The notes under the pieces are model-generated. The model had not been told where the DNA came from, ran no database searches, and saw only the letters and a program-made list of their open reading frames with translations. A program made the translations under genes and the position numbers. Source: a virus. Taken from it: DNA of 36,001 bases. The DNA is taken from positions 1 to 36,001 of the IMG/VR virus record IMGVR_UViG_3300035034_000931; one strand, 5' to 3'. Of this stretch, positions 5,962 to 31,022 are shown piece after piece. The first letter of the stretch is position 1. Each line of letters begins with the position of its first letter.

Positions 5962-7683
5962 ATGTTATTAGGATTCCAATCACTCTCCGCAGTTGACAAA
6001 GGTAGTGCTGAAGCTTACATGAAGCTGTTGCTGTCTATAGTTATGGCCTACGAGTTTGATTACGATGCGGACTATCTTCGCAGACTTACGGCATGGCGCG
6101 CGGCAGCTACTCCTTTTATGAAGCGGTTCAAGATGCCTGTGAAGAATTTGGATAAGGCGTATCGAGATACTCTGGCCCAAAAAGACCCCAGGGAAGACGA
6201 CGCGTATGAAGATTCGATAGATGCCGTCATAGAAGAACTTCGTCAGGCTCAACCGTCTATTAAAAAAGAAATGGACCTTAGCCGAGAAGATGTGAAGATT
6301 TTGAACGACTTGCGTTTGATTCACACTAAAGAAAGTGCGTCCGCCAGAAGAAGCCTGAAAAAAGTGGTAAGCCGCTTCGGTGAACCTGATATTAACGAAA
6401 TGTTTGTCGAAGAAGTTCCTGATGTTTCGGACGAAAAATCTGAGTTGGAGAATCTGGTTAAGAAATATTCTGGCAAGCCCGGTCTAGTTCTTCCTATTCC
6501 AATATTGCAACAATGGCAAACTGTTGCTAAACATCGCGGAGAAAAACTGAAAGATCACACCCGATACTTGCAACTAAGAACCGCTATGCGTACCACGTTC
6601 AAGAAACGATTAGAGTCTTTGGTTCGCAGTAGTGGAAAGCCTTATTTGCCTCTGCATGAAGTTTCTGAGGCTCTCGATGATGAGAATATTCCTCATACGT
6701 TGCCTACAGGGTTTGTTGGCAACATAGATGATGCTGGAAAATTCTATACCATAGAAGGTATGGCCATGTCGACCGCGCCTGCAGGCGAAGTGCGAATGAA
6801 TCCAGCGTATGACCCGAAAAAAGATAACGCCTACGTATGCCTGTTTACTCCTACAGGAGGCAAAGACGAATCTCGGGCTTATACCGAAAACTACAGAAGT
6901 AAAGCGAAGAATAAAAAGTTTTCTGCTGTTACGGCTACTTTGCCCAAACTACCTGCTATGGCACGTAAATGGCGCGAAGCTATGAAAAAGCCAAATACTA
7001 CGGCAGGCATGTTGGCCACAATTTTAGAATTTATATACGTTACTTCTGCGCGTCCAGGCAATCGAGGTAACGCATCAAAAGGTGAAACTACGTATGGTGC
7101 TACTCAGCTACAAGTGCGCCACGTATCCATAACCGAAAACAAAATCATCGTTAAATACAAAGGTAAATCCCAGTCAAGTGAAACAGGAGCAACACAAAAA
7201 CACGTAATAAACTACAATAGCTCTGCTCCTCTGAAACTATTGGCTAAAAACCTTCAGCATTATATGAAAGGTAAAAAGCCGACCGGCAGTCTTTTCCTGA
7301 TAAAAGACAAGACTCCCACTAGCACTACAGTTACACGGTATCTTAGGACTCTTGGTGGCCATAACGATTTCACAGTACACAAATTTCGTACATCTAAGGC
7401 ATCTAAAATGGCCCTAGATATTTTTAAGAAGAGTCCGTTTAAGAAAGGTGGCAATTGGAAAGAACGTGAAGTTAACAAGTGGGTAGAGGATCAACTGCTG
7501 CTGGTCGGTAATGAACTTGGCCATACTAGCGGAGAAAAAGTAACTACCAGTACCGCAATTGGAAACTATATTGAACCTTCTATATTAGCTGACTTTTATA
7601 GTAGTCTGAATATTAGACCTCCTGCCAAGATTCAGAAGGCAATAGATGCCGCGAATAAACACCAATCCCTCGGGGCGGTGTAG
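5962..7683 (+). CDS. Type IB DNA topoisomerase-like protein
   Basis: The 573-residue product has the catalytic layout of poxvirus/bacterial topoisomerase IB in its C-terminal half: ARPGN with R364, GETTYGATQLQVRHV (374-388), GKS with K402, HKFR with R476, LGHT with H521, and NYIEP with Y536 as the presumed DNA-linking tyrosine. All five catalytic residues of the family are present in the right order. The enzyme would relax supercoils by nicking one strand through a 3'-phosphotyrosine. Residues 1-180 form a helical, charged extension with no match I recognise; known small IB enzymes are near 310-340 residues. The related fold of tyrosine recombinases is the main alternative, but the GETTYG...RHV and GKS phrases favour topoisomerase IB. 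AGAGG precedes the start. Confidence 0.85.
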   Translation: MLLGFQSLSAVDKGSAEAYMKLLLSIVMAYEFDYDADYLRRLTAWRAAATPFMKRFKMPVKNLDKAYRDTLAQKDPREDDAYEDSIDAVIEELRQAQPSIKKEMDLSREDVKILNDLRLIHTKESASARRSLKKVVSRFGEPDINEMFVEEVPDVSDEKSELENLVKKYSGKPGLVLPIPILQQWQTVAKHRGEKLKDHTRYLQLRTAMRTTFKKRLESLVRSSGKPYLPLHEVSEALDDENIPHTLPTGFVGNIDDAGKFYTIEGMAMSTAPAGEVRMNPAYDPKKDNAYVCLFTPTGGKDESRAYTENYRSKAKNKKFSAVTATLPKLPAMARKWREAMKKPNTTAGMLATILEFIYVTSARPGNRGNASKGETTYGATQLQVRHVSITENKIIVKYKGKSQSSETGATQKHVINYNSSAPLKLLAKNLQHYMKGKKPTGSLFLIKDKTPTSTTVTRYLRTLGGHNDFTVHKFRTSKASKMALDIFKKSPFKKGGNWKEREVNKWVEDQLLLVGNELGHTSGEKVTTSTAIGNYIEPSILADFYSSLNIRPPAKIQKAIDAANKHQSLGAV

Positions 7684-10629: not shown

Positions 10630-11831
10630 CAAAATCTTCGACACCCGACGCTACTCCGGTGCCCGTTCTCTTATGAACTGCTGCATGTTGCCATGCAGAT
10701 GAGACTATATCACGATCTCCGTCCTTAGAGACCCTCCACGTTTCGGGTACCGATAGCTTGCACCCTACTCTACTCACTGCGGTTATGCCGTCCGGCGCCG
10801 CGCTTTCGATAGTCGTTCGGCTTTTATTTATGCGATATAAGAGTAGTCTTTGAACTTCGGATTCTTTGATCGTATTCTATGGCAGATGGTTCCATTCGAG
10901 ACGCCCAAATACTTTGCGGTCTCATGCAAGGAATCAAATTGATGCGTACCAATAGAAACTTTGCGGCAGTTTCCAGAGCGAAAACCACCTTCTCGCAGTT
11001 TTTGTTGGCCCTCTGACATCTTCGATCTAGCTTCTTTGTTGTGTGACTTTCCGTAGAACGGGTTCTTTTCACCAGTTCTCATTTTTCCCAAGTCACTAAG
11101 CTTCTTCCGAATTCTATCTGCTCTCGGTTTTCCGTACAGCTCATCTAAATTTTTACCGGTTCTAATCTTACGCAAGGCTGCGGCTTGATTCCCAGCAGCG
11201 ACTATCCTTATTCTTGCATCTTCCGTGTGTGTTCTTCCAAACATCCCATTCTCCGCACCTAGGCGAACCCACTTAGCGATCCTTTCTTCTTTAGATAGGC
11301 TTGCTAAGTACAAACGGGACGCTTTCTTTTTTCTAGCGTACAGTAAAGCTCTGTCTTTGTCTGACATGAACTTCAACAAGTTTCCACCAGAAGCAGCGCC
11401 GCTTGTGTTATATATCTTTTGCCTTGTTAACGTGTTTAGGAAATACTGCTCTATGCCGAGTGCTTCTTCTATACTGCTGCACCTAAACAAAACTCTCGGC
11501 GTAAAAGCTTCTCTTCCATATTTTTTCCAAGCACGCTTTAGATATATACAGTGATGGTGTCCAGACTCTAGCCCGCGTACATGCCTTTTAATGCGGGCTT
11601 TGATGTTTGCAGAACTTCCTATGTAAAACTTTCCGGTAACTTTATTCAGAATTTGATATACACCGCACGCCATCTCACTAACCCTTTTCCATTAGAACAT
11701 AGAGGTAAATTATTAAAGAGTGAGCCTAGCGTCTAATCGCATAAAACTTAGCACGGGATTGGGTCAGTGACCGTTCCCCGTTTAATGGAGTTTGCTACAC
11801 CGATCGCTCAGTGTAGGCGCTCAATTGCAGA
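10630..11831 (-). mobile_element. Group I intron (1202 nt) in thymidylate synthase
   Basis: On the minus strand the exon ends GCGT and the intron begins TC at 11831. These six bases pair with GAGCGC (11822-11817) to form P1, with the expected U-G wobble at the splice site. The intron ends in G at 10630. P2 is CTACAC/GTGTAG (11795-11816). P4 is CGGG (11780-11777) with CCCG (11757-11754); P5 is a GGTC/GACC hairpin (11762-11772). The Q-like segment is AATCCCGTGCTAAG (11760-11747). P7 is GACTAT (10814-10809) with ATAGTC (10708-10703), a perfect 6-bp match. The homing endonuclease gene lies between P5/P6 and P7, as in td-type introns. Splicing itself is inferred. Confidence 0.92.
10828..11673 (-). 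CDS. Intron-encoded GIY-YIG homing endonuclease, I-TevI-like
   Basis: The 281-residue product has GVY at 4-6 and YIG at 17-19, Arg27 and Glu75, which fall at the same residue numbers as the catalytic Arg and Glu of I-TevI. Two NUMOD3-type motifs follow (ENGMFGRTH near 141-149, NPFYGKSH near 203-210), then a C-terminal helix-turn-helix region (FDSLHETAKYLGVSNGTI) as in I-TevI's DNA-binding end. It would cut intronless thymidylate synthase alleles and drive intron spread. AAAAGGG lies about 10 bases before the ATG. The gene is intact and lies inside a peripheral loop of the intron core, so intron and enzyme can move as a unit. I-BmoI is the other close family relative. Confidence 0.93.
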   Translation of the reverse strand: MACGVYQILNKVTGKFYIGSSANIKARIKRHVRGLESGHHHCIYLKRAWKKYGREAFTPRVLFRCSSIEEALGIEQYFLNTLTRQKIYNTSGAASGGNLLKFMSDKDRALLYARKKKASRLYLASLSKEERIAKWVRLGAENGMFGRTHTEDARIRIVAAGNQAAALRKIRTGKNLDELYGKPRADRIRKKLSDLGKMRTGEKNPFYGKSHNKEARSKMSEGQQKLREGGFRSGNCRKVSIGTHQFDSLHETAKYLGVSNGTICHRIRSKNPKFKDYSYIA

Positions 11832-12662
11832 ACGCTGGTACATGATTAGATTCAACCGGTGACGAGGAAGATTCCAACTGTCTAGGTCTTCATGCGTAGG
11901 CACAACGTCACGACCCAACTTATGCATGATGTGATTTTGAACATTGGTACGGATAATCTCACGTTCCGCATTGTACCAGATCGCATTGTTTTCTGTGGCA
12001 ACAATGTGGGCTTCAAGTCTTTCTTCTACGCTCATTTCTTCACACAGGTAATGTTGCAACACATGGCAAGGCGGCAATGCCATAGATTCCATATCACTAG
12101 GATTCCATGCGCTGATGATCATGCGGCGACTGTTAGGGTTGTTCTTGATCTCGTTAACGATATTTGCCAACTGATCAATGTCTCGATGCCATACGGAAGT
12201 CATAACGTCGTCAGCTTTTGCGAAAAACTGTCCAACACGCTGGTATCCAAGATCGGCCAGAAATTCGTAACCTGCACCTCTCACAAGTTTCGTATCTTGC
12301 CACTGTCTCCACTGGACGCCGTAGATACGGCCTAAATCGTCCTCTCCTTTGCGCCACGGGTTGTCTAACCACCTATTCTGTGGCATCCCTTCTGGGTTCT
12401 GCTTGTTAGCATTGTCTTTCCATACAGAACTGCCAATCTGCTTAAACGTCTCGGCGTTATCCGTTCCTCGAATAAATCCCAACAACTCGCCAATTACGGA
12501 TTTTATAGGCAGACGCTTTGTTGTAACTGCTGCGAAATTACGACCGTGATCAAGTTTGAAATTCATAGTGTTGAACACCAAAGATCGCGTATTGACTCCT
12601 GTTCGGTTCTCTTTTTGCGGGGCTCGAATAAGAGTTTCCATAGTCTTAATATAGTTGAACAT
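11832..12662 (-). CDS. thyA: Thymidylate synthase, exon 1 (N-terminal 277 aa)
   Basis: Thymidylate synthase methylates dUMP to dTMP using methylene-tetrahydrofolate. Exon 1 has NRTG (19-22), ELLGFIRG, GRIYGVQWRQW (111-121), the arginine pair R179-R180, and LPPCH with catalytic Cys199. It ends at Arg277 of Y-Q-R; without splicing, translation adds S-A-I-E-R-L-H and stops at TGA 11808-11810. Two insertions lengthen it over the 264-residue E. coli enzyme: about 30 residues after WRQW and about 55 between Cys199 and Y-Q-R. AAAGGA lies 8 bases before the ATG. The gene leads a leftward unit with two unknown genes. Paired with the thymidylate kinase at 4860 it supplies dTTP. Confidence 0.94.
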
Positions 12663-12759: not shown

Positions 12760-13047
12760 ATGTTCGGCTGCGCTCGTATGCCTATAGATATGTCTACAGG
12801 CCATGGTTGTTTTCCGCCCACTGTACCCGTTATGGGTTCCATATCCACGTTCACGGACCAGTTCTCTCAAGTTCGTGTTACTGATATGTGGGCGCCACAC
12901 TGTTGTGGACCAGTATGCCACCCAGTAGTATCTGCTATGGGCAGCATGACCACGTTCGCAGATCAATTGCCGAAGATGCGTATGATGGATATGCTGAGTT
13001 GTGGCGATATGGTAGCCGTAGGCTCTCTAACAACATTTGCAGGTTAA
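12760..13047 (+). CDS. PAAR-repeat tail-tip protein
   Basis: The 95-residue product matches PAAR proteins, small cones that cap the spike of contractile tails and type VI secretion systems. It has GHGCFPP at 14-20, HCCGPVCHP at 47-55, and repeated MGS-[IM]-[ST]-TF-x-DQ blocks (near 25 and 60) with a third GSLTTF at the end. The Cys and His residues probably bind a metal. CAGGAG lies 8 bases upstream of the ATG. It is the first gene of the baseplate unit and lies 3 bases before the gp25-like gene, an order seen in many myoviruses. Confidence 0.9.
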   Translation: MFGCARMPIDMSTGHGCFPPTVPVMGSISTFTDQFSQVRVTDMWAPHCCGPVCHPVVSAMGSMTTFADQLPKMRMMDMLSCGDMVAVGSLTTFAG

Positions 13048-21860: not shown

Positions 21861-22613
21861 ATGATTGGAGGAATCAAACAAAGTGTATTGGTTTCCAATC
21901 TTCTGGAAGGTAATGAAGAGCGTGTGCCTATCGGTCAGAAAATAATTACCAATACCGTAAAAAGCAATTCAAAAGATTTGATGCCGCGTACCGCAGGACA
22001 AAAACTAACCTCTCTCCACATTGATCAGTTTGATGTGTTTGGTGCTTACAGGCAGTCAAAAGCAACCAAGCGCGATGATGCAAAAGGAGATGTTTCTTAC
22101 GCCGAACGTGAGATCATTAACGATGGTCTTATCGTTGATGCTGCGTTTGATGCAGAAGGCGGAGTCGTTAACATGGTGCGTAAAAACGCACAAGTGTTGA
22201 TGGTAGACGGTCTGCTAACGCAAGGTGACTTTGGTACTGGACCTACCGGACCCAAGGGTGAGCCGGGTCATCCAGGTTACGATGGGTTCGACGGAAATGA
22301 TGGTCCTACAGGGCCGACAGGATGTGCCGGACCTAATGGTGGCGACGGACCTCAGGGTGAAATGGGTCAAGCTGGTGCAGATGGTCCTCAAGGCATACCC
22401 GGACCTATGGGAGGTCCCGGACCCGAAGGCATCCAAGGACAAGATGGTGACATGGGTAGATACGGTCATGAAGGCGCACGTGGCGCACGAGGTATTCAAT
22501 GCGACGCGGAACCCGGATCGACTGGTACTCCAGGCGCGGCTGCAAACACTAGCGTAGTAATATCCGCTTCAGAGCCTGACAATTTGACAGTGCTTTGGGG
22601 CTTACCAGATTGA
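21861..22613 (+). CDS. Collagen-like fibre protein A
   Basis: The 250-residue product has an N-terminal region of about 120 residues, ending in a head module (AFDAEGGVVNM then VDGLLTQGDFG), followed by about 28 uninterrupted Gly-X-Y triplets (GPTGPKGEPG...), then a short beta end (VVISASEP then LWGLPD). Gly-X-Y tracts form trimeric collagen helices, used in phage fibres as stalks. A single Cys in the tract lies at triplet 10 (GCA), and a second Cys follows the tract directly. It shares its head and end modules with the genes at 22622, 23512 and 27553. GAGGG lies about 9 bases before the start. Confidence 0.85.
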   Translation: MIGGIKQSVLVSNLLEGNEERVPIGQKIITNTVKSNSKDLMPRTAGQKLTSLHIDQFDVFGAYRQSKATKRDDAKGDVSYAEREIINDGLIVDAAFDAEGGVVNMVRKNAQVLMVDGLLTQGDFGTGPTGPKGEPGHPGYDGFDGNDGPTGPTGCAGPNGGDGPQGEMGQAGADGPQGIPGPMGGPGPEGIQGQDGDMGRYGHEGARGARGIQCDAEPGSTGTPGAAANTSVVISASEPDNLTVLWGLPD

Positions 22614-22621
22614 GGTAAATC

Positions 22622-23308
22622 ATGGCAGGATTAACTAGACCTGTGGTAGATCAAATCAGCGCTCCCGGTAATGCCGGAGAGACTGAGATAGTAGTAAGGG
22701 ATGAGCGCTTAGCCGTTGAAACTCCACGAGAGTCACCTGTATCAGAAATTGAGTATGGACATTTTGATCCCGTACTTGGTATTCTAACTCTTAGGTTATA
22801 CAACGGAGAGCAAGTAAAAGTAAATGGCTTTCCTACTGCTGATAAGATACCAACAGGTGCTACCGGTCCGCAAGGACCTAGAGGTCAAGACGGTAAAGCC
22901 GGTAAAGAGGGTAAAGACGGCAATCCCGGCGAAGAGGGGTGTGAAGGTCCTCCGGGTGCTGCGGGCGGTCCAGGTCCTCAAGGACGCGATGGTCGAACTG
23001 GTATGCAGGGTCCTCCGGGCGTCCGCGGATTAACGGGACCTAGAGGCCCTCAAGGTAATCGTGGTCCGCAAGGCGTATTAGGCCCAGTCGGTCCTACGGG
23101 GCCAAGAGGCGAACCCGGCCCCTCGGGAGGAGCAGGCCAACCCGGACCTGCAGGCAGCGTTAACATAATCGTGTCTTCTACTGATCCTGGCGCTGCGGGC
23201 GCAGGAGTTCTATGGGTTAATCCAGGAGCAGGCACTACAGGTGGCGGTGGAACTACAGACCCCGGCTCTACCCTAACGGATCCGCCGATCGGCACTCCGT
23301 GGCCGTAG
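22622..23308 (+). CDS. Collagen-like fibre protein B
   Basis: The 228-residue product begins MAGLTRP, has the shared head module (GHFDPVLGILTL, then QVKVNGF, residues about 42-68), and then about 33 Gly-X-Y triplets, the longest tract in the window. Cys appears once in the tract, at triplet 10 (GCE). The C-terminal module (VNIIVSSTDPGAAGAGVLWVNP) matches that of protein C at 23512. It ends with a Gly/Thr-rich tail. Trimeric stalk formation is known for such repeats; the partner is unknown. TGAGG precedes the ATG, 8 bases after protein A. Confidence 0.85.
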   Translation: MAGLTRPVVDQISAPGNAGETEIVVRDERLAVETPRESPVSEIEYGHFDPVLGILTLRLYNGEQVKVNGFPTADKIPTGATGPQGPRGQDGKAGKEGKDGNPGEEGCEGPPGAAGGPGPQGRDGRTGMQGPPGVRGLTGPRGPQGNRGPQGVLGPVGPTGPRGEPGPSGGAGQPGPAGSVNIIVSSTDPGAAGAGVLWVNPGAGTTGGGGTTDPGSTLTDPPIGTPWP

Positions 23309-23335
23309 TGTCCCTGGGAATCAACAGGTGTGAAA

Positions 23336-23512
23336 ATGAAATGTCCAAAGTGCAATACAAAATGGAGCTTTGATTCAAAGCAATCAATAGCTGTTGAACT
23401 TCAGGGTTCTTGTCTATCGTGCAGACGCCATGAAATCTCAAAGAAAGAGATAGATGAAATTCTGGACGAACAGAAACGCCGAAAGGCTTATTACGAAAGA
23501 GGTAACAAGTAA
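23336..23512 (+). CDS. Zinc-finger-like microprotein, 58 aa
   Basis: I use ATG 23336 (AGGT about 6 bases upstream) rather than a GTG two codons earlier that lacks a ribosome site. CPKC and CLSC are about 22 residues apart, a zinc-ribbon layout, followed by a charged helix (KKEIDEILDEQKRRKAYY). It lies between two collagen-like genes, and its TAA overlaps the next ATG by one base. The position in the fibre cluster is odd for a small zinc protein; function unknown. Confidence 0.75.
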   Translation: MKCPKCNTKWSFDSKQSIAVELQGSCLSCRRHEISKKEIDEILDEQKRRKAYYERGNK

Positions 23513-24015
23513 TGGGCGGATTAACTAAAACTCCTCTGTCGATGCTTGAAGCTCTGGGTGAGCCAGACTCAGACGTTAGATTTTCTGGTGAGGCTGTTTA
23601 TACTGAACGTGACCAGAATATTAACAATACTGGCCTTCAGGCTGGCCACTTTGATGATGCTACCGGTATACTGACAATCACACTTGTCAACGGTCAGAAA
23701 ATGCAGATCGCTGGGTTTATGACTCAAGGCGATATCGGCATGGGTCCTCCAGGTACTCAAGGCATTGGAGGCACAGACGGTACTGACGGCCTATTGGGTG
23801 AAGACGGTCTACAAGGACCTGCTGGTTGTCAAGGCCCTCCCGGCACTCCTGGCGCAACCGGTCCTCGTGGCGAAATGGGACCTCAAGGTGCTGAAGGTCC
23901 TGCCGGTGTCCAAGGCGCAAAAGGTGATCCGGGTGAAGATGGTCAAGTAGACATATACATTCAGACTGAAGACCCGGGTCCTGTTGGTGCCGGTGCATTC
24001 TGGGTAAGACCGTAA
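23512..24015 (+). CDS. Collagen-like fibre protein C
   Basis: The 167-residue product is the shortest of four paralogues. It starts MGGLTKTPLSMLEA, has the head module (GHFDDATGILTI then QIAGFMTQGDIG), about 22 Gly-X-Y triplets with one Cys at triplet 10 (GCQ), and the beta end VDIYIQTEDPG...GAFWVRP. It is translationally coupled to the zinc microprotein before it. The LTxxPLSML start recurs in the protein at 27553, indicating duplication. Confidence 0.85.
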   Translation: MGGLTKTPLSMLEALGEPDSDVRFSGEAVYTERDQNINNTGLQAGHFDDATGILTITLVNGQKMQIAGFMTQGDIGMGPPGTQGIGGTDGTDGLLGEDGLQGPAGCQGPPGTPGATGPRGEMGPQGAEGPAGVQGAKGDPGEDGQVDIYIQTEDPGPVGAGAFWVRP

Positions 24016-24030
24016 ATATAGGAATAAATA

Positions 24031-27000
24031 ATGGGCCGCTTACGCATACGAAATCCTGCAAACGCAGCATGGTTAGATATTTGTCAGTCTGAGTGGTACG
24101 TAAGAAACGCTGCTAACACAAGATGGCGTCGATTGGTACCCGCGCGCGGTATTCGTGTGCGTCACGGTACCGACAATTACTGGATAAATATTGACTGTTT
24201 GACTGAAGACGACTGTGAGCCTGATGTATACGGTGGAACAGAAGACGGCGGAGGTGCAAACGGTTCTGGTCCTCCAGCTCCTCCTTCCGGTGAACCCGCT
24301 CCCGACGCTGGTTATCCAGATGCAGGTAACCCAGATGGAGGCACATCGTGGGATGATGGTGGCGGCGCCGGAGGTTCTGGTGGCGGCTCTGGTGGTGGCG
24401 AAATGGAGCCCGGTGAACCCGGAGGTGAATGGGAAGGTGAGCCGGAAGAAGAGCCAGAAAACTGGGGCAACACGCAACCCGATTCTCCTGCGTATAGCAA
24501 TCCTGATCTAGGCTCAAGCCCGGAAGGCGAAGGCGATAGTTCTTGTTACCAAGGCAGCATGGACCCAAATGAAGGAACATATCCTCCTGGCTACGATCTG
24601 CCGGATAGTTGCGGTCCCGGTGCGGGTCTTCAGACTGACGGCAACGGCAATGCGTGTCTATATCGTCCAGGTCTTGGTGTTTGTGAGCCCTACAACTCAG
24701 GCGAAGGCTCAACTTCTGGTCCCGGCGGTAGTTCGCCCGACGACGCACTGCAATGTCCGTCTGGTATAATCTTCCGTGGTTACGGCATTCGCGAAGAGTA
24801 TTGGCATCTAGGATACAACCCCGGCGAAGCACGTATTTGGTACAATATGGTAACAGGCGTCACTTCAATCGACGTTTACCTTAACGGTTCTCGCGTTGCT
24901 ACAACTAATGGTCAGGTAGGCGGCCAAGGTTATATCTCATTCATGTGGGGATTTCCATACGGTCACGACCCGATGGAAGACAATGTTATTCTGGTTCGTA
25001 TGCGTGGTAACCCAGACTCGTGGGCAAACATTCACGTATCTTGTCCTGACGAGTATCCTGCAGGTTCTGTTCCTGGAACTCCGGTTGATCCTGCTGCGTG
25101 TCGCGGAACATTTGAACCCAGTCACGGTGGCGGTGGCGGCGTACAAGAAATGTACCACGAGTTTGGTGATGAAAGTGGACCAGCCGTCATAGATTATCAG
25201 ATGTGGAACATTAGTGACAAGCTTGAAGTGTTTTATGAAGGCGAACTCGTAGCTAGTACAGATGGTTTTGTCGCAGGCGTTGGTCAGTTGCGTTGGGAAC
25301 ATACGTTTAATATAGACTCAATGGTTGTTATTCGGGTTTCTAGTTCTTCTGATGAAACAAGTTGGGTCTATTTGATAACATGCCCAGGTGATACTGGCAA
25401 CCAAGCCAATCCTCTTCCTTGCGATGAGATAACAGAATCGTTGGGCGCCAGTATAACTGACACGTACTATGATCTCGGTGACGAACCCGGCGCTATTACC
25501 ATTGATTATCAAATGGATACAGATGCCGATTCAATGGATGTGTACCAGCTCGACACTCTGGTAGCTACAACCGGCGGACCCGTTACAGGAAGTGGAACCT
25601 TATCGTTTGAGTACGATCCCACTATTGATAAGTCGATTCATATTCGCATGGCGGGCACCGGAGTAACAAATTGGACTTTCCAAGTACATTGTGCGGAAAC
25701 GATCGTACCTTGTGGAACTTTCTGGAGTGGTGAGGATGGACGTACTATTTCTACAGAGTTTACAAGTGGTGCAAATGAGTTTGCTTTGGTAGAATACGCG
25801 ACAGTTGGACCCGGTATTGCTCCTCCAAACGGAGCACCTGATAGACTAACTGTTTCTAACGAAGGTAATGTTCTGGAAGATACTATTGATCCAGTTCTTC
25901 GCTGGGAAGCTGGCGGAATGGGCGGACTTGCTATACCGGTTGCCAGCCTAACTAAGCTGGATGTTACCAGTCCGGGAGCTTCAACGTATTGGAGTCAGAC
26001 TGTCCACTGTCCTATTGTCCATCCGACTGACGGTATTAGATTCGTCGCGTTCAATAAAGGACTACCACCTGCATTTGAGTATGGTTCACACGGAGACGTA
26101 TTACCTGGAACAGCAGTAGGAATAACGCCGGAGCCTGATGCCATACTAGCAGGTAGTACCGCTGCCATGGCAGTCAACATGTTCCACACTACCACTGGCA
26201 ATCTTCGCTTCCGCGGTATAGCCGACGACTATGCCTCAGTGTTCATAATGCCTGACGGTGGCACCAAGCAGGACATAGGAACGTTTAATCTTGCCAGTGC
26301 GCAGTCTCACGATGTTTCTGTTTCTCCGGGTACGTACTTTGTTTATATACTTATGGAGAATGCTCCTAGCGAAACACCCGGCTGGGTAGCTATGGATATA
26401 ACAGAAACAGATACAGGTAAAGTGGTTTCTATAACCAGTAAAGACTGGAAGATGGACTACTACGAAGCTGATAACTCGTACGGAGGTATCAACGAAGCCG
26501 TTATGCCTGAGATAGAATCTTTGGTGTTTGATAGTGAAACGGAAGCACAGTCGTTTATGAATGCTAACGTTGCGCCCTCCTTGGAGCAGATATTCAACAC
26601 TTGGCCGCGAGCAGAAGGTGGAAACTACTATGCCGCCGCGCCATTTGGTGGAGAATCCGACGACTGGTATTACGATTCTGCGCTGGCGCAGTTTGTTATG
26701 CCTACGAACACTGCTTCACCCAATTCTATCCTTAGTCCGGATGAGGTAGAGAATTACGTCCTTGAAGCGACCGTAACATCGGACGGTCCGGATGATGACG
26801 CTATCGGTCTTGTTATGGCCTCTCGCGTTATCAGTGGTGTGCCACATATTCTGATACTGATTCGTACGCAAGGTGGGTTTACAACTCCGGCGACCGGATA
26901 CGGTATAGTTTATTTCGACGGTTCGACCTCGCGGGTTATAGCTGACATTGGAGTAAACGATACCCAGGGAGCATGGAATGGAACATCAAGTAGATTAAGC

Positions 27001-27363
27001 GTAGTTCGCGAAGGCGATAGCTTTACCGTCAACGCTACGAAATTCACCGGAGGTTCTATAGCGGAATTCGTATATACCTTGGGCTCCGATCCACAACTCG
27101 ATAAGTTTCGTGGTCCAGCTAGCTTCGGTTTTTATACACACAGTCAGGCAGGCTCCACTTACCAAAATGTTTCTATGCCGTTTGCTGAGGGTCGCGTACT
27201 AGCAGTCTCTACCAACAGAGTGTGGGAAGCGCAGAATGGAACATGGGTCGATCTGGGCACCGCTAATCCGTTCAGTGATTATCTGCAATGGCCGAGAGTT
27301 GCTGTAAACCCAAATACCAATCTTCGGTATTATGTCTATCGTTACGTATCCCGTAAAGTCTAG
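24031..27363 (+). CDS. 1110-residue modular adhesin-like fibre protein
   Basis: Residues 1-55 hold three short repeats of the form W-x-V-R-x-x-x-N-x-x-W (for example SEWYVRNAANTRWRRL). Residues about 68-165 are a Gly/Pro/Asp/Glu-rich linker. About 242-660 hold four tandem beta-rich repeats of some 95 residues, each opening with Cys and ending in Cys, usually CP or HC. About 700-800 resemble a beta-sandwich (RFRGIADDYASVFI), and about 905-1075 have the look of a concanavalin A/laminin G-type jelly roll. The whole suggests a carbohydrate-binding fibre or appendage. It lies 15 bases after collagen protein C. Domain identities beyond the repeats are tentative. Confidence 0.65.
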   Translation: MGRLRIRNPANAAWLDICQSEWYVRNAANTRWRRLVPARGIRVRHGTDNYWINIDCLTEDDCEPDVYGGTEDGGGANGSGPPAPPSGEPAPDAGYPDAGNPDGGTSWDDGGGAGGSGGGSGGGEMEPGEPGGEWEGEPEEEPENWGNTQPDSPAYSNPDLGSSPEGEGDSSCYQGSMDPNEGTYPPGYDLPDSCGPGAGLQTDGNGNACLYRPGLGVCEPYNSGEGSTSGPGGSSPDDALQCPSGIIFRGYGIREEYWHLGYNPGEARIWYNMVTGVTSIDVYLNGSRVATTNGQVGGQGYISFMWGFPYGHDPMEDNVILVRMRGNPDSWANIHVSCPDEYPAGSVPGTPVDPAACRGTFEPSHGGGGGVQEMYHEFGDESGPAVIDYQMWNISDKLEVFYEGELVASTDGFVAGVGQLRWEHTFNIDSMVVIRVSSSSDETSWVYLITCPGDTGNQANPLPCDEITESLGASITDTYYDLGDEPGAITIDYQMDTDADSMDVYQLDTLVATTGGPVTGSGTLSFEYDPTIDKSIHIRMAGTGVTNWTFQVHCAETIVPCGTFWSGEDGRTISTEFTSGANEFALVEYATVGPGIAPPNGAPDRLTVSNEGNVLEDTIDPVLRWEAGGMGGLAIPVASLTKLDVTSPGASTYWSQTVHCPIVHPTDGIRFVAFNKGLPPAFEYGSHGDVLPGTAVGITPEPDAILAGSTAAMAVNMFHTTTGNLRFRGIADDYASVFIMPDGGTKQDIGTFNLASAQSHDVSVSPGTYFVYILMENAPSETPGWVAMDITETDTGKVVSITSKDWKMDYYEADNSYGGINEAVMPEIESLVFDSETEAQSFMNANVAPSLEQIFNTWPRAEGGNYYAAAPFGGESDDWYYDSALAQFVMPTNTASPNSILSPDEVENYVLEATVTSDGPDDDAIGLVMASRVISGVPHILILIRTQGGFTTPATGYGIVYFDGSTSRVIADIGVNDTQGAWNGTSSRLSVVREGDSFTVNATKFTGGSIAEFVYTLGSDPQLDKFRGPASFGFYTHSQAGSTYQNVSMPFAEGRVLAVSTNRVWEAQNGTWVDLGTANPFSDYLQWPRVAVNPNTNLRYYVYRYVSRKV

Positions 27364-27373
27364 GAGTGTTATC

Positions 27374-27544
27374 ATGGCAATAAGTTTGATTGTTCGACAG
27401 TCGCCTGATAGGCCGTGGGTTCGTAATTTTTCAGCGTACGGTTGGAAAGTTCGTAGCTCTACAAATGGAAGTTGGATCAATATGACTCCGACTAACACAA
27501 AAGTTCGCAGCATGGATAATACCCAGTGGCTGTCCGTTAAGTGA
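27374..27544 (+). CDS. Small paralogue of the adhesin N-terminus, 56 aa
   Basis: I chose ATG 27374 because TAGGAGTG precedes it; the frame is open from 27332 but that overlaps the adhesin end. The product carries two copies of the W-x-V-R-x-x-x-N-x-x-W mini-repeat (WKVRSSTNGSWINM and KVRSMDNTQWLSV), the same motif as the N-terminus of the 1110-residue protein. It looks like a free-standing version of that attachment module and could compete with or cap it. CDS coupling to the next collagen gene is close (8 bases). Confidence 0.7.
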   Translation: MAISLIVRQSPDRPWVRNFSAYGWKVRSSTNGSWINMTPTNTKVRSMDNTQWLSVK

Positions 27545-27552
27545 GGTAGGTA

Positions 27553-28359
27553 ATGGCTAAGTTAACCAGAGTGCCATTGTCCATGTTGGACGCGGGCGAT
27601 AATGCCCGCGCTAACGACGATGTTGTGTTCAACGGTAATGACATAGAAGCACAAACTCCAGGTTCGGCAGATGAAACGGATAATTTCGTTGTCCGTGGCG
27701 AGTTCGATCCTGAAATAGGTGTTTTGAATCTCTATCGCGTAGATGACAGTATTGTGCAAGTGTCTGGGTTTATGACAGCACACAATATTGGCATTGGGCA
27801 GAAAGGCGCAACCGGTCCTCGTGGAGCAGCCGGTGTTGCTGGTCGTAATGGCCGGGATGGTCGTCCTGGAGGTCCCGGCTGTACAGGACCTAAAGGCGAT
27901 ATGGGTCCTATGGGCTCACCAGGTCCTGCAGGCCCAACCGGTCCCCGTGGTCTTGCTGGACCTGAAGGTCCTATTGGCCCACAGGGTTCTATCGGTCCTG
28001 CAGGCATGGATGGTGAACGTCCTACGCAAACCACTACAGAAGTGAGTTCTGCGGAAAGTGTCTCTACAGGTCGTGTGATGCAGTGGGGAAGATTAACGGA
28101 TAACAACGCTGCTGAAATGAAACAAATAATGTTTCCAGAAGCTATTGATTCAGTCGGTAAACCACACTCCATCATATTGCAGTGGGTTAACCCAAGTAGC
28201 AACATTGCAAACAAAGTTCGTGTGCAGCGGGTAGAGGATGGTTATGCGCTCTTGGCTGTAAACACGTTTATGCTAGACCTTGAGCCTGATGGTGTAGGCG
28301 GTACGCAGCCTGTTGCCATGACTGGTTGGGACTTCTACTGGTTCTTGATTGGAGAATAA
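27553..28359 (+). CDS. Collagen-like fibre protein D with distinct C-terminal domain
   Basis: The 268-residue product begins [12 protein letters not shown] like proteins B and C, has the head module ([12 protein letters not shown] then [13 protein letters not shown]), then about 25 Gly-X-Y triplets with a single Cys at triplet 10 (GCT). Unlike its paralogues it ends in about 110 non-collagen residues (from ERPTQTT), a beta-rich globular domain with WGRL and a final WDFYWFLI. That domain may be the receptor-binding or tip part. GTGAGG precedes the start. Confidence 0.85.
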
Positions 28360-29781: not shown

Positions 29782-30744
29782 ATGAAAAAGCATATTTTGC
29801 TGTTATGTATTATACTGTACGTTCCACAGGGAACAACGTTGGAAAAGCCCGAAATCGTTATTGATTCCGTTACGGATACGGAAAACGCTTTCAATTCTGT
29901 TTATGTTGTCCAGTCTAACAATATAACAGAGTTGTACGGTGACAGCATTATTGCGGAATTGAAACGCAATAATGCTGAGTACAAACTTAAAGTGTTGTTT
30001 GCTCGGGATTACGCGCAAGATCGGTTTTATTTTTCCAAGGAATTTACTGAGCGTGAGATACAAAAACGCGCGGAAAACTATGATGATTTAGTTCTTCTCG
30101 GTTATGACTTGTCCTACTTGGAGTTGAAAGATAGCAATCCTATTCAAATACCAATACTCGTCACATCGACTTCGGGCAAGCCGGGTCCTGCTTCTCCTGA
30201 TAGTCTTGTAGAAGGTATTAAATCGGCGCGCGAACATTTGGAATCCATTAACGGAACTGTATACGTCATAAGTGATTTCTCTAGTTTCAGTAAACTTCGA
30301 TTAAACCAATTTGAAGAAGCCTTAAGCGCCGAACCTTCTTTAAAACTGGTTTCTATAAAAGTATCCAGCGTTGTTAGGATGCGGTATAGATTAACCGTAC
30401 TTAATAGCGAGCCTAGGTCTTTTATTGTAAATAACACATTTAATTTGCTGGACCAAGACTCTAGCACCGTTCTTTCTGCCTCAAGTACGGATAAAATTCT
30501 AACAGAAGTGAATACAAAGCACGTGGAAGTAAGCGTTTTGAGGTGGGAACAACCTACCGCTTTAAGTTTTGGAGCTTTACCTGGATACCTGGCCAGCAAC
30601 ATAGAAGCCGAGTTACAAGGTGAAGATTATCCTCTTAGACTCCAAGCAGGTGTTAATTTGGATCGTGTAGGTTTTCTCGGAATCAATGAGTACGTACTAA
30701 GCAACGCTAAAGAAATTGTCTACATAACGGTGGATTCACCATGA
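29782..30744 (+). CDS. Secreted protein, weakly like ABC substrate-binding (TrpX) proteins
   Basis: Residues 1-18 form a clear Sec-type signal (MKKHILLLCIILYV); no lipobox or A-x-A cleavage site is obvious. The body (320 aa in total) has an alternating fold like periplasmic binding proteins: a helix then LVLLGYDLSYL and IPILVTST, later GTVYVISD, and near the end LQAGVNLDRVGFLGI followed by LSNAKEIV, which resembles the closing V-N-L-x-x-A-x-x-L-G-I segment of the TrpX-like family. The match is weak. It overlaps the next gene by ATGA. A phage-encoded periplasmic protein is unusual. Ligand unknown. Alternative: an envelope-targeted exclusion or lysis-control protein. Confidence 0.6.
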   Translation: MKKHILLLCIILYVPQGTTLEKPEIVIDSVTDTENAFNSVYVVQSNNITELYGDSIIAELKRNNAEYKLKVLFARDYAQDRFYFSKEFTEREIQKRAENYDDLVLLGYDLSYLELKDSNPIQIPILVTSTSGKPGPASPDSLVEGIKSAREHLESINGTVYVISDFSSFSKLRLNQFEEALSAEPSLKLVSIKVSSVVRMRYRLTVLNSEPRSFIVNNTFNLLDQDSSTVLSASSTDKILTEVNTKHVEVSVLRWEQPTALSFGALPGYLASNIEAELQGEDYPLRLQAGVNLDRVGFLGINEYVLSNAKEIVYITVDSP

Positions 30745-31022
30745 ATACTAAAGTAGCTAGAGGACTACTTATTGCACTTTTGTGTTTTCTACTTCTTTTT
30801 GCTATTATTCCTCTGTTTAAGCAGAGCGAGTATGTGGACAGGGAAATAGTTGTACAAGAATCACTCCAGTGCATTACGGCAGTTTGCGTCAGCGAGACCT
30901 CAGTCGGAGAAGAATGCAGGTATTTGAATGCATTTGTTTCCAAATTGATAGTCACCGTTGATCCTAATGACTCAGAGAAGCGTATTGTTCGCGTACAACC
31001 AACAAAAGCGGATTGCAGATAG
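30741..31022 (+). CDS. Bitopic membrane protein with cysteine-bearing periplasmic domain, 93 aa
   Basis: Residues 8-26 are a single membrane span (GLLIALLCFLLLFAIIPLF) after a basic N-terminus, predicting a cytoplasmic start and periplasmic end by the positive-inside rule. The outer part has four cysteines (44, 49, 59, 92), which could form two disulphides in the periplasm. It overlaps the secreted-protein gene by 4 bases, so the two are coupled and may interact. It is too long for a class III holin and lacks the coiled coil of an inner-membrane spanin. Function unknown. Confidence 0.75.
   Translation: MNTKVARGLLIALLCFLLLFAIIPLFKQSEYVDREIVVQESLQCITAVCVSETSVGEECRYLNAFVSKLIVTVDPNDSEKRIVRVQPTKADCR

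Follow-up and report, generated by a model that had tools for sequence, protein, structure and literature searches.

What can a single cysteine do when it stands at the same height in four collagen-like stalks? The question is raised by a metagenomic virus fragment of 36,001 bases (hereafter the window, meaning the whole stretch of DNA that was analysed) encoding four collagen-like proteins, here P1 to P4, whose genes and orthologues we call g1 to g4. The initial annotation had placed a cysteine in the X position of the tenth Gly-X-Y triplet (X10) in all four, and a codon-level check of P1 to P4 bears this out.

The locus and its relatives

The window was assigned to the "Lupandier" jumbo phages (PaBG/Lu11/"hairy Myoviridae"; group name from PMC7412058), as it carries an orthologue of their 774-aa protein followed by a g1-g2-g3-(large protein)-g4 block. 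Lupandier phages such as PaBG, Lu11, NCTB, Y3, Yoloswag, Alexandra and JA29 share this arrangement of genes with the window, and each of the four collagen proteins has orthologues in them. Orthologues of the window's 773-aa protein (Table 1) were found in the Pseudomonas phages PaBG, Lu11 and HRDY3, in phage NCTB and in many Erwinia, Dickeya and Yersinia jumbo phages, and every relative has the same layout after the 774-aa gene, namely g1, g2, g3, at least one large protein, and g4. By this neighbour protein the window is 48% identical to PaBG, and the IMG/VR contigs L137 (85%) and L138 (75%) are closest to it. The collagen genes sit in a tail/baseplate gene block: in the orthologous blocks they are preceded by genes for PAAR, gp25-like and baseplate wedge proteins, and the PAAR motif of the window itself scored below the cut-off. 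Immediately before the 774-aa tail gene there is also a conserved gene for a small zinc-ribbon protein, which is annotated in relatives as MutM-like or as DNA ligase. Two of the records compared, Salmonella phage Sen-NF (L015, PV359490.1) and Alcaligenes phage Afa-NA1 (L016, PV550095.1), have identical collagen tracts despite different stated hosts and sizes, and one or other of them may be chimeric or contaminated.

Table 1. Positions of the collagen-like proteins, their tracts and cysteines, and other features of the window
Feature	Position	Strand	Remarks
Topoisomerase I catalytic core, eukaryotic type	5962-7683		PF01028, E=1.7e-16
GIY-YIG homing-type endonuclease with NUMOD3, and adjoining thymidylate synthase gene	10828-11673 and 11808-12662	-	
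PAAR motif	12760-13047		Below cut-off
Zinc-ribbon protein, 81 aa	18688-18933		CxxC...CxxC; PF13453
Tail-collar-like neighbour, 773 aa	18945..21266	+	phrog_21488; no conserved Cys
Collagen-like protein 1 (P1/g1), 250 aa	21861..22613	+	Long head; Pfam PF01391 E=6.5e-13
P1 Gly-X-Y tract, 29 triplets	22239..22499	+	Few interrupted g1 orthologues: same length, same register
P1 Cys155, X of triplet 10 (GCA)	22323..22325	+	
P1 Cys214, Gly position of triplet 30	22500..22502	+	Tract end; kept in every g1 orthologue seen
Collagen-like protein 2 (P2/g2), 228 aa	22622..23308	+	
P2 Gly-X-Y tract, 34 triplets	22856..23161	+	34 in all g2
P2 Cys107, X of triplet 10 (GCE)	22940..22942	+	
Collagen-like protein 3 (P3/g3), 167 aa	23512..24015	+	
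P3 Gly-X-Y tract, 23 triplets	23743..23949	+	23 in all g3 except L187 (22)
P3 Cys106, X of triplet 10 (GCQ)	23827..23829	+	
Multi-domain protein between g3 and g4, 1110 aa	24031..27363	+	Gly/Ser-rich linkers; possible alternative disulphide partner
Collagen-like protein 4 (P4/g4), 268 aa	27553..28359	+	C-terminal globular domain of ~110 aa
P4 Gly-X-Y tract, 25 triplets	27796..28020	+	g4 orthologues 24-25; Lu11 clade 40-49
P4 Cys110, X of triplet 10 (GCT)	27880..27882	+	
93-aa protein	30741-31022		Hydrophobic N-terminal anchor; Cys 44, 49, 59 and 92 conserved

All four proteins match the Pfam collagen family PF01391 above its cut-off (36.6-51.3 bits against 27.2) and also phrog_8745 (tail fiber), and thus resemble the phage collagen-like tail fibre proteins in which Gly-X-Y tracts are found. 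Their N-terminal heads proved homologous on alignment, so that the four genes derive from one ancestor; the heads do not, as had been claimed, align without gaps up to the tract, since that of P1 (126 aa, as against 77-81 aa in P2 to P4) is about 45 residues longer and that of P4 can be aligned to the others only with small gaps. Pfam and PDB profile searches with the head returned no match, and an AlphaFold2 model of it (mean pLDDT 74, pTM 0.39) found nothing meaningful in the PDB by Foldseek (best E 0.48).

A cysteine at fixed register in stalks of near-fixed length

A pattern scan of IMG/VR for the cysteine motif is biased towards the cysteine, and we therefore based the conservation counts on annotated phages together with IMG/VR contigs fetched through the neighbouring 773-aa gene, which avoids any choice by cysteine and gave 58 loci; two loci, L021 and L164, first came to notice through the pattern scan. 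The 12 annotated phages supplied 48 tracts, 47 of them with cysteine at X10; the entropy of this column is 0.15 bit, against 0.8 to 3.6 in the other X/Y columns, so the residue is kept while its surroundings drift. Only four further X/Y cysteines occur in the 2,744 positions of these tracts, and the second-best shared residue, Asp in the Y position of triplet 7, occurs in 42 of the 48. Extending the comparison to 29 representative phages gave cysteine at X10 in 110/113 tracts (g1 27/29, g2 29/29, g3 29/29, g4 23/23, and both of the extra 33-triplet g2-like copies in L138 and L157) against a background of 18 cysteines in ~6,270 remaining X/Y positions, near 0.3%, and the 58 neighbour-selected loci agree. 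The earlier suggestion that the position is conserved beyond chance is thus upheld. The further claim of exactly one cysteine is correct for the uninterrupted Gly-X-Y run and fails for P1 beyond it, where a second cysteine (C214) follows at triplet 30.

Homologues in which the tract is kept and the cysteine lost, which would have told against a conserved position, were sought and proved few: in the Dickeya JA-type clade g1 has Asn at X10 while g2 to g4 keep cysteine, and an extra collagen paralogue of 22 triplets between g2 and g3 (L021:11320) has Asp there and no cysteine at all. Both cysteine codons are in use at X10 (77 TGT, 34 TGC), and selection therefore acts on the residue. Taken from the sequences, these counts strongly support X10 Cys as a conserved and selected position. 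One could instead envision four recent duplicates that merely inherited a functionless cysteine, and the single ancestor indicated by the homologous heads would permit it. We reject this explanation and consider it hardly credible, because the other X/Y positions have diverged almost freely, with neighbour orthologues down to ~30% identity, while X10 has undergone synonymous codon changes and stayed cysteine at the frequency given above over so low a background.

The stalks themselves are nearly constant in length within each orthologue: g1 has 29 triplets followed by a cysteine, g2 34, g3 23 (22 once) and g4 24-25 (40-49 in the Lu11 clade). Phage collagens are usually seen as spacers of variable length; here the triplet number holds at ~30% neighbour-protein identity, as if stalk length were a ruler. 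The mixed trimers of the four proteins that the initial annotation had allowed for are disfavoured by these figures, as the tract lengths are unequal (29/34/23/24-25) and do not match in the way that the chains of a heterotrimer would, yet each is conserved, which makes separate homotrimers more likely. In the open-access literature we found no description of a register-fixed cysteine combined with near-fixed tract lengths in four phage collagen paralogues.

Further cysteines and triple-helix geometry

Two more positions bear on the question. The Gly position of triplet 30 is cysteine in every g1 orthologue, often in the context GPS-CIA-GAT-GPT, although replacement of Gly by Cys in collagen is normally disruptive. 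The X position of triplet 20 (X20) is cysteine in several lineages, always in g1 and g2 jointly and never in g3 or g4; g1 and g2 have the same state in 29/29 phages, and a maximum-likelihood tree built from the neighbour protein shows three joint changes, each independent of the others. Thus NCTB lacks X20 Cys in both genes while its closest relatives, L153 and L155, have it in both, and the difference between them is a substitution inside recognisable flanks. As these flanks differ between g1 and g2, gene conversion is an unlikely source of the joint changes. A model in which the two genes depend on each other was preferred to one of independence (LR 18.6, p~0.001), and independent traits of similar frequency simulated on the same tree coincided fully in 0.06-0.17% of draws. 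The joint occurrence therefore appears to exceed independence, but with three events behind it we regard this as suggestive and not conclusive. It is consistent with neighbouring g1 and g2 stalks that run parallel and in register; a common selection pressure, instead of contact between the two, could also produce it.

Distances were taken from a model of the canonical 7/2 triple helix (rise of 8.60 Å; Gly N and X O 2.95 Å apart); a 10/3 model fitted poorly and its distances were not used. In the 7/2 model the CB of an X residue lies 5.3 Å from the axis and faces outward, and X residues of the same triplet are separated by 8.7 and 11.8 Å (CB-CB), their SG atoms staying at least 7.4 Å apart over all rotamers. 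On this geometry cysteines at X10 or X20 cannot bond, or share one metal, within an undistorted in-register trimer, so that any partner must be outside the trimer; the earlier proposals that the residue locks the trimer or binds a metal within it find no support in the folded canonical helix. The same cysteines appear well placed for bonding to a neighbouring stalk, and two stalks at a centre spacing of ~14 Å could be bridged by them. For a cysteine in the Gly position the modelled CB-CB distance is 3.4 Å, and that at triplet 30 of g1 could form a bond inside its own trimer.

A role within the trimer, whether homo- or heterotrimer, nevertheless has precedents. Animal collagens are well known to register their trimers through cysteine, the cystine knots of type III or FACIT being examples, and a cysteine that registers or locks the chains, at least transiently during folding, would fit both the fixed position of X10 relative to the head, where folding would begin, and the suitable geometry of triplet 30 in g1. 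It is the latter residue, at the helix end, that would correspond by position to the type III/FACIT knot, whereas X10, with its minimum SG-SG distance, does not allow the bonding of adjacent chains found there. Heterotrimers clash, moreover, with the fixed unequal tract lengths, and a self-contained lock makes no prediction of a joint X20 Cys in g1 and g2. We consider such a role for X10 very doubtful.

Candidate partners for the triplet-10 cysteine

If the partner lies outside the trimer, disulphide links between neighbouring stalks are in our opinion the best reading of X10, though one we hold only tentatively. The four proteins would be virion fibres, of the tail tip or of the tail "hair", and each would form a homotrimer: first a small head rich in beta structure, next a collagen stalk whose length is set by the gene, and last a tail end that varies. 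Several stalks would be held side by side by these heads, parallel and in register, and on each of them the X10 Cys would face outward ~8.6 nm away from the head. When the virion comes into oxidising surroundings, this residue would pair by disulphide with the matching cysteine of adjacent stalks, so that the stalks are bundled at one set height. Some phages may have a second staple at X20 of proteins 1 and 2, where both would touch further up, and the stalk of protein 1 would be closed by the in-trimer cysteine lock at triplet 30. The conserved cysteines of the neighbouring 1110-aa protein, of a kind expected in virions that use disulphides, count for stapling; extensive disulphides link the tail and baseplate subunits of Agrobacterium phage Milano (PMC10811340), though the proteins bonded there are those of sheath, tube and baseplate, and collagen is not mentioned. 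Against stapling count the L021 paralogue without X10 Cys, the failure of the heads to return a confident fold match, and the three thiols of each trimer, of which not all need pair. The loss of X10 Cys from Dickeya-type g1 while g2 to g4 keep it indicates that pairing with g1 at X10 is not obligatory. In the gel-band table of the PaBG proteomics, g1 to g4 do not appear among the identified bands.

The main alternative is that X10 is bonded to or capped by another virion protein, such as the 1110-aa protein or a baseplate component, which reads the four stalks at one height. A common ligand would account for the single register in four stalks, though loss in g1 alone is tolerated, and the 1110-aa protein, present in 23/23 phages tested, has conserved cysteines (Cys18 in 12/12, Cys56 in 12/12, Cys357 in 17/20, Cys451 in 18/21, Cys464 in 20/21 and Cys554 in 16/17). 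These cysteines lie near domain borders, possibly in disulphide-linked beta domains, and their pairing there looks like internal bonding; such a partner also explains the joint X20 Cys of g1 and g2 less simply, and we think it unlikely. The 773-aa neighbour was rejected as a disulphide partner for want of a conserved cysteine. Less probable again is a functional thiol with no disulphide role, one that binds a metal, carries a thioether, thioester or other modification, or serves, when the phage adsorbs, for attachment to a thiol on the host surface. All the sequence data would allow an exposed free thiol at one set height, and g1 of some relatives ends in a Hint-like domain capable of acyl transfer (PF07591, PT-HINT, with E=2.7e-4 to 5.6e-4 and thus short of the curated cut-off). 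On the other side, the geometry excludes a metal held within a single trimer, the g1 proteins of the window and the Lu11 clade have the cysteine but lack Hint domains, and the g1-g2 co-occurrence at triplet 20 is left unexplained. Hint domain and X10 Cys are not correlated, for both are lost in JA29-type g1 while only the former is absent from the window and Lu11 clades. Hint-like (intein/hedgehog) ends were observed in Erwinia-type and NCTB g1 and in a large NCTB fibre protein (L013:15198-15731, L008:17100-17954, L008:19782-23693).

A more elaborate form of the stapled bundle, which we consider doubtful, would place four kinds of collagen homotrimer on one platform as a hetero-bundle, in which the cysteines of triplets 10, 20 and 30 would be the rungs of a ladder that joins them. 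Ten triplets make one full superhelical turn in 10/3 collagen, and in that form the rungs would therefore face the same neighbour. The nearest working analogue is C1q, whose parallel collagen stalks are bundled and have A-B and C-C disulphides close to where they join (PMC11869133). No homology is claimed; the likeness is one of several parallel stalks with inter-chain disulphides, which for the phage stalks are proposed. The C1q cysteines are at a flexible N-terminus whereas the phage cysteine is nine triplets inside the helix, and C1q trimers are ABC heterotrimers whereas the phage tracts differ in length, making homotrimers more likely.

The combination of near-fixed stalk lengths with a cysteine at one height amounts to a structural rule for phage collagens, kept across a clade that infects Pseudomonas, Erwinia, Dickeya and Yersinia. 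If true, the cysteine-ladder bundle would give phages their own equivalent of the C1q stalk, and it could serve as a compact design, made in bacteria, for bundles of cross-linked collagen. "Hairy Myoviridae" morphology has been seen in several Lupandier phages, and the proteins of the hairs are still without identification (PMC6143709); the bundle, if real, may be these hairs or else a tail-tip tuft of Lupandier virions. With cultured phages at hand, it becomes testable whether phages make disulphide-stapled collagen bundles and whether these are the hairs of the hairy myoviruses.
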